Of a stretch of 64,000 nucleotides of DNA, positions 32,547 to 36,312 are shown piece after piece (the stretch's first letter is position 1; every line of letters begins with the position of its first letter). The notes below the pieces were generated by a model that was not told the origin of the DNA, did no database searches, and saw only the letters and a program-made list of their open reading frames with translations. This DNA is from Holophagaceae bacterium (GTDB taxonomy: Bacteria; Acidobacteriota; Holophagae; Holophagales; Holophagaceae), in NCBI GenBank assembly GCA_013334395.1, contig JAAXXS010000004.1, positions 1 to 64,000 on the forward strand, read 5' to 3'. The position numbers were made by a program, and so were the translations under genes.

Positions 32547-32784
32547 CGTGTGCCTAAGGGAGAGGAGGGGCGGACAGGTCCGCGTGGCCGACCCAGCAGG
32601 GTCCGGAGGGCCACCCGGGATGATGATCGCAACGGGGGTCGGGGCAATCATCAGGCACGGAAAATCTCGACAAAATTCAAAAAGATAATGCTAACACGGG
32701 GGTTGCCGTTGAGAGGGGAGAGGCGCGCCTCCCCCGTGACCCATCATGGTAGGCTTGAGCCCTTCCTTTTTCCTGGCAAAACTC

Positions 32785-35160
32785 ATGGTTCAGTTCAATA
32801 CCCGAGGCAATGAGATCCTCCTCAAGCTGGTCTACTATGGGCCGGGTCTCAGCGGGAAGACTACCAATTTGCAGTCCCTGCACGCCATGTGCTCCGATGC
32901 CCAGCGCGGGGAGATGTTTTCCGTCAACACGCAGGAAGACCGAACGCTCTTCTTCGACCTGCTGCCCATCAACCTCGGCTACATCTACGGCAATGCCATT
33001 CACCTCCAGATCTACACGGTGCCTGGCCAGGTGCAGTACGACGCGAGCCGGCGGGTGGTGCTGGGAGGGGCGGACGGCGTGGTGTTCGTGGCGGATTCCT
33101 GTGAGTCCAAGATGCAGGACAACGTGGACTCGCTCTCGAACCTCTACCACAACCTCAACGCCAATCGGCTGAACATCAAGCAGATCCCCTTCGTCATCCA
33201 GTACAACAAGCGGGACCTTCCGGATGCCATGGCCGTGGGGGTCATGAACCGGCGCCTGAACTTCCGCAGCGTGCCCTATTTCGAATCCGTCGCCAACCGC
33301 GGCACCGGCGTCCTGGACACGTTTCTCTCCATCACCCGGGAGACCGTGGGCCACACCTTCAAGAAGTACCACCTCGACAAGAAGATCAAGGACTTCGATG
33401 AGATGTTGAACCTCATCGATGCCAACGTCCGGACGAGCATGCGGGAGCTGCCGCTGCTCGAACCGGGCTCCTCGGTGCCCGCCATCGAGACGACAGTGCT
33501 GAGACACAGCAATGTGAGCGTGGCCGACCTCCTGCCGGGCAAGGTCGCGGACGCCCACGAGCTGCTGGAAGACGCCCTCAAGTCCAACATGGAGACGGCC
33601 CGCCTCTACTCTGAGCTCAAGCAGATGAAGGAGGCCGTGGAGAAGAAGAACGAGGAGATGAGCGCCCTCTACGCCCAGCTGGACCGGGCCAACCAGGACA
33701 ACCTGAAGACCCGCCGCTACCTCGAAGGTCTGGTGCAGAACATCGGGGAAGCTGTCATCTCGTACTCGCCGGACGGCAAGATCCTCACCTGGAACATGGC
33801 CGCGGAACGCATCTTCGGCTATTCCCGGCCCGAGATCGTCGGCCGGAGCATGGCCCAGCTGACGCCGGATCACCTGCTCGGGGAGCTGGAACGGGTGGCC
33901 CAGCAGGTGGCCCGGGGCCAGGTCATCCGGGGGGTGGTCACCAGCCGTCTACGCAAGGGGGGCGTTGCCTTCCCGGCCAGCATCACCTACGCCCCCGTCC
34001 GGGGTGCCGACGACCGGGTGCTGGCCTATTCCGCCCTGGTCCGGGACATGAGCGAACAGAAGGACCTCCAGGAGCGGCTGACCCACTCCCAGAAGCACGA
34101 GGCCCTCGGCCGGCTGGTGCCCTCCCTCTTCCACGAGGCCGCCAATCGCCTGACCCCGGTGTTCCTGGAAGCGAACCTGCTTGCCGAAGCCAGCCTGGAC
34201 CCCAAGCAGGCTGGGCAGGTGGACCGTCTGGTGAAGGCGGTGGACTCCATCCAGTTGCTGCTGCAGCCCCTGCAGACCATTCTCAACCCGCCCACGCCGG
34301 TCCGGATGCCCGTCCAGCTCAACGACCTGGTGGCGGAGGTCGCCGCGATGGTCGCCCCCAAGGCCCAGCAGGTGGGGGTCACCGTGGAGCTGAGCCTGGA
34401 TCCGAGCCTGCCCGTCTCGGAGCTGGACCCGGAGCTCATGCGCCAAGCCCTCACCCACCTGCTCCTGAACAGCCTCCAGTCCCTGACGCTCCGTCCCGTC
34501 AAGCAACTGCGTGTGAGCACCCGCCTCTCCGGGGACAGCCTCCACGTGGTGGTGCAGGACAGCGGGCCGCTGATCCCCGAAGCCCGGCAGGCCGAGCTGT
34601 TCAATGCCGCCGCAAGCGTCACCACCGAGGCCCTGGGGCTGCCCATCGCCGAAAGCATCTGCCGACAGCACGGCGGCCGCCTAAGCGTGCAGAGCCAGGA
34701 GGGATCGGGCAATGCCTTCCTGCTCGAGATCCCGCACGTGGTTGCCGCGCCCCGGACGGCCTCGCCCAGGGAGGCGCTCCAGGGCAAGCGGGTCCTGGTG
34801 GTGGACGACGAGACCTTCTTGCTGGAGTGCCTCGTGGACGCCCTCGGCGCCTGGGGCATCGACGTCGCCTCCAGCACCCGGGGCGACGAGGCCATCGAGC
34901 AGCTGCAGAAGGGGGCCTTCGACCTGATCGTCTCCGACATCCGCATGCCGGGGCTGTCGGGCGTCGAGCTGTATGACTGGCTGAAGGCCGAGCGGCCCGG
35001 GATGCTTCGGCGGATCCTCTACACCACGGGGGATTCCTTCGATGCCAAGACCCGGGACTTCCTGGAGACGAACCAGGTCCCCTACCTGGGTAAGCCCTTC
35101 GATCTAAAGCAACTCAAGCAAAGTCTCGAACTCCTCCTAGGGAGTCCGGCGGAGGCGTGA
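32785..35160 (+). CDS. MglA-like small GTPase fused to PAS, histidine-kinase-like and receiver domains
   Basis: N-term GPGLSGKTTNLQ, YTVPGQVQYDASRRVVLGGADGVVFVADS and NKRDLP (MglA-type G1/G3/G4); coiled-coil linker; PAS (NIGEAVISYSPDGKILTWNMAAERIFGY); FHEAANRLTP; REC VLVVDDE...SDIRMPG...YTTGD...GKPFD. Confidence 0.9.
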   Translation: MVQFNTRGNEILLKLVYYGPGLSGKTTNLQSLHAMCSDAQRGEMFSVNTQEDRTLFFDLLPINLGYIYGNAIHLQIYTVPGQVQYDASRRVVLGGADGVVFVADSCESKMQDNVDSLSNLYHNLNANRLNIKQIPFVIQYNKRDLPDAMAVGVMNRRLNFRSVPYFESVANRGTGVLDTFLSITRETVGHTFKKYHLDKKIKDFDEMLNLIDANVRTSMRELPLLEPGSSVPAIETTVLRHSNVSVADLLPGKVADAHELLEDALKSNMETARLYSELKQMKEAVEKKNEEMSALYAQLDRANQDNLKTRRYLEGLVQNIGEAVISYSPDGKILTWNMAAERIFGYSRPEIVGRSMAQLTPDHLLGELERVAQQVARGQVIRGVVTSRLRKGGVAFPASITYAPVRGADDRVLAYSALVRDMSEQKDLQERLTHSQKHEALGRLVPSLFHEAANRLTPVFLEANLLAEASLDPKQAGQVDRLVKAVDSIQLLLQPLQTILNPPTPVRMPVQLNDLVAEVAAMVAPKAQQVGVTVELSLDPSLPVSELDPELMRQALTHLLLNSLQSLTLRPVKQLRVSTRLSGDSLHVVVQDSGPLIPEARQAELFNAAASVTTEALGLPIAESICRQHGGRLSVQSQEGSGNAFLLEIPHVVAAPRTASPREALQGKRVLVVDDETFLLECLVDALGAWGIDVASSTRGDEAIEQLQKGAFDLIVSDIRMPGLSGVELYDWLKAERPGMLRRILYTTGDSFDAKTRDFLETNQVPYLGKPFDLKQLKQSLELLLGSPAEA

Positions 35161-35217: not shown

Positions 35218-36312
35218 ATGCAGCGAACCTGGGTCATGACCTGGATCCTGGCCACGGGCCTGCTGGCCCAGGCGCCTTCCCCCGAGCCCCCTCCAGCTCC
35301 CGCGGCCCAGGCCCCCAAGCCGGAGCCGCCCGCCGCGCCCGTGCCCGAAGCCGTCAAGCCCGTCGAAGCCAAGACCTTCGATCAGCTGCGACCCAGCCAG
35401 CGGAAGTGGGTCTATACCCTCCACCGGGCCGCCCTCTCGGCCCACGAGCTGGGCTATTACCGGAGCCACCCCAAGGCCGTGGAGCTGCGGACCGCTCTGG
35501 GGGAGCTGCTGGCGGCCAAGCCCGTGCTTCCCGAGAAGGCCTCCGCCTCGTTGTCGGCGGTCGAGGCCTACCTCACCCAGCTTCGGACCAACCACGGAGT
35601 CTATGACGCCACGGGCGCCAAGCTGCTGCTTGGTGGCACCTGGAAGGAGCTCCTGGGGGCCGCCCGCGCCGCGGCCAAGGTCGGCCACCCGGGGCTCGAG
35701 CCGCGTCTGCTCAAGCTCAAGGGCCTGCTCTTCGACGCCAAGGTTGATGCCGTGGCGCCGACCTGGGCCGAGCCCGAGGCCCCCGCCAAGGGCAAGAAGG
35801 CCAAGGCCGCCAAGGCCCCGGGCGCCCCTGACGGCTTTGCCGAGCAGAAGGCCATCACCGCCCTCTGGGTGAAGCGCGCCCAGGCCTGGGTGGAGAACAC
35901 CCCCCAGGAGGTGGAGGTCAACGGCGAGAAGAAGAGCCGGCGGCTGCCCGATCCCGTGCAGACCAATGCCCTGAATGACCTGCTGGCCTGGCTGGACAAG
36001 GAGGACCTCGTCCTGCTGCGCGACCCCGCTTTCGGGTGGCTGGACCTGCATCGGCTCGGCGCCGCTCCCGGGGCCGGGCTGCTCGCGAGGTCAGCCGATC
36101 TGACCGCCGGCAAGGCACCCGAGGGCGCCCCCGGGGAGCTGGCGCTCCTGCCGACCTTCGAGCCCGTGCTGGGCGAAAGCAAGTTCGCCCCGGGCGAGGA
36201 GAAGCGCGCGGTGCTGGTGGAAGTGAAGCAGGGCCCCGCCCCGGCGACGCTTGCCGAGCAGTCGGCCCTCTTCGAGAAGCTGGGCCGCAGCCGGGAGCTG
36301 GAGGTCAAATAG
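35218..36312 (+). CDS. Secreted protein with possible M49 (dipeptidyl-peptidase III) N-terminal-like region, no HExxGH
   Basis: Signal peptide then Pro/Ala-rich linker; QRKWVYTLHRAALSAHELGYYRSHPKAVELRTAL...NHGVYDATGAKLLL resembles N-lobe of M49 peptidases. Confidence 0.5.
   Translation: MQRTWVMTWILATGLLAQAPSPEPPPAPAAQAPKPEPPAAPVPEAVKPVEAKTFDQLRPSQRKWVYTLHRAALSAHELGYYRSHPKAVELRTALGELLAAKPVLPEKASASLSAVEAYLTQLRTNHGVYDATGAKLLLGGTWKELLGAARAAAKVGHPGLEPRLLKLKGLLFDAKVDAVAPTWAEPEAPAKGKKAKAAKAPGAPDGFAEQKAITALWVKRAQAWVENTPQEVEVNGEKKSRRLPDPVQTNALNDLLAWLDKEDLVLLRDPAFGWLDLHRLGAAPGAGLLARSADLTAGKAPEGAPGELALLPTFEPVLGESKFAPGEEKRAVLVEVKQGPAPATLAEQSALFEKLGRSRELEVK

Follow-up and report, generated by a model that had tools for sequence, protein, structure and literature searches.

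Proteins of the MglA GTPase family and two-component proteins are separate molecules in Myxococcus xanthus and in Streptomyces, where the effect of phosphorylation on the GTPase is hard to isolate. Group 1 MglA, as in M. xanthus and Thermus thermophilus, has MglB as its GAP and is a single domain of about 195 aa, mostly encoded adjoining mglB (PMC4316618). In the RomR/Frz system of M. xanthus, a receiver-domain protein regulates the MglA GTPase (PMC3441718; PMC9481161); there, the receiver is a separate protein. The Streptomyces conservons (CvnA-D) unite a sensor histidine kinase-like protein and an MglA-family GTPase in one system, with CvnB and CvnC, as separate operon-encoded proteins (PMC4316618; PMC13343842). 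DivL of Caulobacter combines PAS with a histidine kinase (HK) fold whose kinase function is lost; it has neither kinase nor phosphatase activity, carries Tyr at the His site and lacks a G domain, but it binds a phosphorylated receiver (PMC4211667), so an HK fold can serve such a role. A survey of prokaryotic Ras-like GTPases used a size criterion of 150-240 aa and dropped proteins over 240 aa (PMC4316618), a cut that would have hidden a class of MglA fusions.

The window, a 64,000-nucleotide stretch of a Holophagaceae contig (JAAXXS010000004.1), encodes such a fusion. Its 791-aa product shares about 50% identity with Group 1 MglA in the G domain, including the P-loop, R53, T54, Q82 and NKRD. 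Unlike Group 1 MglA, it does not adjoin mglB and falls outside the tree group of stand-alone MglA. Unlike RomR/Frz and the conservons, it holds the receiver, PAS and HK-like core in the same chain as the GTPase, with no MglB-like neighbor. Each domain is known, and links of MglA to receivers and to kinases are known in trans. No description of MglA-kinase fusions was found in the open-access literature searched; the covalent architecture and its spread across the phylum therefore appear undescribed in that literature.

The fusion gene and its domains

Translation gives a single uninterrupted open reading frame on the plus strand, with an ATG at 32785 and a stop at 35158-35160. Its features are as follows.

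32785..35160, + strand: whole gene, stop included, MglA-PAS-HK-like-REC fusion of 791 aa (translation; family-wide orthologs sharing the start)
32785..33354, + strand: MglA G domain, aa 1-190, with P-loop GPGLSGKTT, R53/T54, TVPGQ (Q82) and NKRD (phmmer; ortholog conservation)
33355..33552, + strand: linker, aa 191-256, with near-invariant helix TFKKYHLDKKIKDFDEML (alignments)
33553..33720, + strand: coiled coil or signaling helix, aa 257-312 (AlphaFold helix 257-318)
33721..34050, + strand: PAS domain, aa 313-422 (Pfam PAS, 9e-14)
34051..34314, + strand: DHp-like helical hairpin, aa 423-510, with H-box FHEAANRLTP (H450, E451, N454) (alignments and AlphaFold; no Pfam HisKA match)
34315..34749, + strand: degenerate HATPase_c (CA) domain, aa 511-655, with N562, D592, DSGPLIP and ALGLP (Pfam, 3.8e-13; conservation)
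34780..35139, + strand: receiver (REC) domain, aa 666-785, with D674, D675, D718, T748 and K770 (Pfam, 1.8e-19; invariance)

Above the Pfam cut-offs, the protein matches an Arf/Ras-type GTPase, PAS (313-422), HATPase_c (548-651) and Response_reg (670-781); HisKA gives no score on the 791-aa protein. Residues 5-187 match M. xanthus MglA structures (6h17) by phmmer with E = 1.4e-54. The fusion and the domain order given in the preliminary description thus stand, every motif quoted there is present, and the receiver called apparently intact has all of its active-site residues: acidic pocket, phospho-Asp, Thr and Lys. None of the 19-residue windows in the protein is hydrophobic enough for a membrane helix. 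A mechanical open reading frame would begin at 32746; this start was rejected, as the residues upstream of MVQFNT vary between orthologs, whereas MVQFNT at 32785 is their conserved start.

Homology and the nucleotide-binding and catalytic motifs place the first domain in the MglA family. With 791 aa and four further domains in place of one small domain of 150-240 aa, and with mglBA encoded elsewhere in the genomes of relatives, the protein is, by its sequence, a carrier of an MglA-family G domain rather than an MglA protein in the strict sense. The label "polarity GTPase" would likewise derive from homology to MglA. The H-box consensus (H-E/D-x-x-T/N) occurs as HEAAN at 450-454. The ATP site departs from the intact set of N-box Asn, DxGxG and GxGLG, with DSGPLIP and ALGLP in place of the latter two.

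AlphaFold predicts a long helix (257-318) followed by PAS, a helical hairpin, a HATPase-type domain and REC. Confidence is high for PAS, CA and REC and lower for the hairpin, and the overall arrangement is unreliable (pTM 0.36). The full-length prediction left the G domain and its placement unresolved, probably owing to the near-lack of alignment variation there. Foldseek matches for DHp/CA include PAS-HK structures, HK853 and DivL, and the DHp/CA fold is predicted to be intact and to resemble the latter two.

Orthologs and conservation by domain

Because the window comes from a fragmented metagenome-assembled genome (MAG) of 343 contigs, a frameshift or misassembly joining two genes could in principle have produced the fusion, as the preliminary description warned. 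This explanation is rejected. Orthologs with 63-91% identity occur in many independent assemblies, single-contig genomes and finished genomes among them, and named isolates carry them: Geothrix fermentans, G. rubra, G. campi, G. oryzisoli, G. fuzhouensis and G. limicola. They occupy one syntenic locus throughout Holophagaceae, with the divergent upstream block rseP-dxr-cdsA-uppS kept at nearly all loci examined and, usually, a PhoB/OmpR-like regulator and a glycosyltransferase downstream. The recurrence of full-length syntenic orthologs across independent assemblies indicates that the fusion is genuine. Matches of 1e-60 or better occur in 72 of 77 genomes from the order, in a few of them through paralogs alone, and none was found in the roughly 1-Mb genomes of genus g8. 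One record titled Deltaproteobacteria (L039, JAIFMW010000027.1) holds a Holophagaceae-type ortholog (63% identity) inside the Holophagaceae group and is probably misnamed or misbinned. At the syntenic loci examined, no conserved operon partner was found except a downstream gene of the Geothrix group. This co-oriented gene (35218-36312, + strand) has a signal-like start and a Pro/Ala-rich region, has no NCBIfam match, and is conserved in Geothrix and weak or undetected across most other genera.

Conservation was compared in 51 distinct orthologs, with identities relative to the window's protein. The G domain averages 94% identity, 143 of its 190 positions are invariant, and the P-loop, R53, T54, Q82 and NKRD are kept without exception. 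In M. xanthus MglA, R53 is the Arg finger, T54 is the Mg-binding Thr, and Q82L abolishes hydrolysis (PMC6876712). Mean identity is 80% in the coil, 77% in the linker, 76% in PAS and 74% in REC; it is lowest in DHp (60%; 5 of 88 positions invariant) and CA (54%; 10 of 145). The receiver residues D674, D675, D718, T748 and K770 are invariant in all 46 REC-bearing orthologs. Every domain has dN/dS below 1 in the twelve pairs compared, and the G domain has the lowest value in most of them, a sign of purifying selection throughout the protein.

The kinase/REC half does not belong to the conserved core, since REC, or the kinase together with REC, is gone from the protein in some genera; L181 and L183, which sit at the shared syntenic locus, stop after PAS. 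Judged from these sequences, the conserved core is the G domain, linker and PAS. The kinase and receiver could then be decaying leftovers of what is in essence a PAS-regulated MglA, as the low DHp/CA conservation and the PAS-only orthologs and class relatives (L156, L157, L181, L183) might suggest. We consider this improbable because DHp, CA and REC all have dN/dS well under 1 and the REC active site is strictly invariant, which points to continued selection in most lineages.

The degenerate kinase core and a proposed switch

The preliminary description regarded the HATPase motifs as degenerate and the kinase as possibly weak or allosteric. The degeneracy is family-wide, and the motif losses support and sharpen the second suggestion as far as sequence can. 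The second Gly of the G1 box (DxGxG) is absent in 51 of 51 orthologs, the N-box Asn N562 is present in 36 and lost in 15, and only 6 have Gly at position 616 of the G2 box. All 36 orthologs of the Geothrix group have H450; outside this group, ten REC-bearing proteins carry Asn at that site, and the five REC-less ones carry Asp or Thr. Seven of the 36 His-bearing orthologs lack N562, including one that is 91% identical to the window's protein (L013). This pattern appears to agree with a DivL-like pseudokinase.

The Asn of the H-box behaves differently. N454 occurs in 46 of 46 REC-bearing orthologs versus 0 of 5 REC-less ones, and E451 is retained in 44 of the 46. In CrdS, two homologs and HK853, the equivalent of N454 is required for phosphatase but not kinase activity, and the counterpart of E451 in CrdS is tied to kinase activity (PMC3510030). 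The five REC-less orthologs form one clade, so the loss of N454 with REC counts as a single event; the REC-less L154 and L155, from another family, likewise lack an N454 equivalent. The association of N454 with REC suggests a phosphatase role for the HK core.

Our preferred reading, to which we assign a probability of roughly 0.4, is that the protein is a G-protein switch with cis inputs from PAS and from a receiver phosphorylated in trans. The protein would be a soluble, probably dimeric MglA-family GTPase whose G-domain state is tuned in cis by the PAS sensor. Another kinase would phosphorylate the receiver, which would also tune the G domain in cis. The DHp/HATPase core, presumably no longer an efficient kinase, would dimerize the protein and dock the receiver, and the retained Asn454 may help strip phosphate from it. 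Signals would likely reach the GTPase by way of the coiled coil and the conserved helix that follows the G domain, and the GTPase may in turn act on MglA-type effectors alongside the separate mglBA pair. This reading draws on the almost frozen G domain with all catalytic MglA residues kept; on the CA and DHp as the least conserved domains, with losses of the G1 Gly, N-box Asn and His; and on the invariance of the REC active site wherever REC exists. The absence of kinase and REC in L181 and L183 and a DHp/CA fold that is predicted to be intact, with purifying selection in every domain, also favor it. Counting against it, H450, E451 and N454 are all present in Geothrix and in the window's protein, the kinase-linked E451 is mostly retained, and the concerted loss of REC and N454 is one phylogenetic event. 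The coupling of GTPase state to two-component signaling that was initially proposed would be the natural inference from this domain set.

Since H450, E451 and N454 all persist in Geothrix, the proteins of this group may retain some activity as kinases or in phosphotransfer. A functional hybrid kinase would take this further: GTP loading of the MglA domain would gate a slow but real autokinase, from which phosphate would go to the REC of the same protein and then further, making two-component signaling, not the GTPase, the output. The conserved H450 of the Geothrix group, the HATPase_c score above the Pfam cut-off, and the intact H, N, DxGxG and GLGLGL motifs of relatives in other families are in line with it. 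We nevertheless judge it unlikely, given that the second G1 Gly is missing throughout, that seven of the His-bearing orthologs have lost the N-box Asn, that the kinase region diverges fastest, and that sister genera lack the His.

Alternatively, the GTPase could be an address tag rather than an output, with a pole-located, GTP-bound G domain positioning the PAS/HK-like/REC half as a scaffold that binds two-component proteins. MglA-GTP is polar in M. xanthus (PMC9481161), and the HK fold of DivL has been repurposed to sense a phosphorylated receiver (PMC4211667). However, the G domain is invariant and the variable part is the scaffold half, which L181 and L183 lack; we hold this explanation to be quite unlikely.

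MglB genes and related fusions

As noted initially, no MglB-like gene lies at the fusion locus. Elsewhere, the search for MglB succeeded in relatives and failed in the window's own MAG. A Robl_LC7 protein scores above the Pfam cut-off in all eight relatives checked; in G003, it is encoded within an mglB-mglA operon (183 and 194 aa), the MglA being a second, stand-alone one. Neither the mglBA region nor the deoC that flanks it was found in the MAG, which is compatible with an assembly gap. The MAG has three PilT-family ATPases above cut-off, making type IV pili a plausible but unproven target. It also encodes two further, longer MglAs, C325 (L002:1501-2376; 291-325 aa) and C189 (L003:847-2070; 407 aa), whose C-terminal regions look beta-rich and have no Pfam match; MglAs of this kind are spread across Acidobacteriota and cluster with stand-alone MglA. 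A second Robl_LC7-like protein of relatives, weak and encoded apart from mglB (G000 C151:12603-12869, L102; G003 C1:3134778-3135044, 131 aa in G003), is possibly another roadblock regulator of an MglA.

A model of the G domain plus linker was run on 396 Acidobacteriota genomes, and chosen matches were scanned for domains; counts from this search are lower bounds. Among the matches listed, MglA-GAF-HisKA-HATPase occurs in several families (at least L164, L159, L163, L187, L162 and L179), alongside MglA-HisKA-HATPase (L176), MglA-PAS-HATPase (L154), MglA-GAF (L184, L178), MglA-GAF-PAS (L167) and MglA-PAS (L156, L157). Several of the listed fusions have intact kinase motifs, and others lack the His. 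The MglA-GAF-HisKA-HATPase fusions resemble the window's protein in that a single chain holds an MglA G domain, a linker, a sensor and an HK core, with alignment to model A1 reaching about position 296 for several; they differ in that GAF replaces PAS, REC is undetected and the kinase motifs are intact in several. Four fusions from f39 and f86 (L161, L174, L189 and L190, in G138, G424, G385 and G278) extend into a long C-terminal region without a match to Pfam or to an HMM built from the CA domains, and we do not claim these as kinases.

In a midpoint-rooted G-domain tree, the Holophagaceae fusion and PAS fusions from its class cluster together (100/99). A separate group of 17 (100/99) holds stand-alone MglA together with M. 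xanthus MglA and with MglAs that bear a C-terminal tail or small domain. The tree is compatible with, but does not prove, a single origin of the sensor fusions. The initial picture of a lone oddity is therefore wrong: the fusion is conserved through Holophagaceae and has relatives in several Acidobacteriota families, MglA-sensor(-kinase) fusions are common in the phylum, and a normal mglBA pair lies elsewhere in relatives. More broadly, Acidobacteriota might possess phylum-wide, one-chain G-protein/two-component switches in which an MglA GTPase is under the cis control of a sensor, an active or dead kinase fold and, in the present protein, a receiver, whose phosphorylation would regulate nucleotide exchange or GAP access from within the chain; we regard this generalization as doubtful. 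The one-chain format and its natural variants, in which the kinase is active, decayed or absent or REC is missing, allow domain-by-domain tests of coupling, and Geothrix isolates carry the fusion.

Two other phyla were sampled, with 247 genomes from that of L064 (a record named Desulfobulbus) and 133 from that of L061 (a record named Zixibacteriota). No sensor-kinase fusion was seen by eye in their seven longest or most notable MglAs, which have acidic/proline-rich or short beta-type tails. Most MglAs in these phyla measure 200-480 aa by open frame. L208, L210, L213 and L214 are long MglAs with acidic or Pro-rich tails, and three of the four share a basic, aromatic C-terminal motif, SLFGWxKxLG, which could be a membrane anchor.
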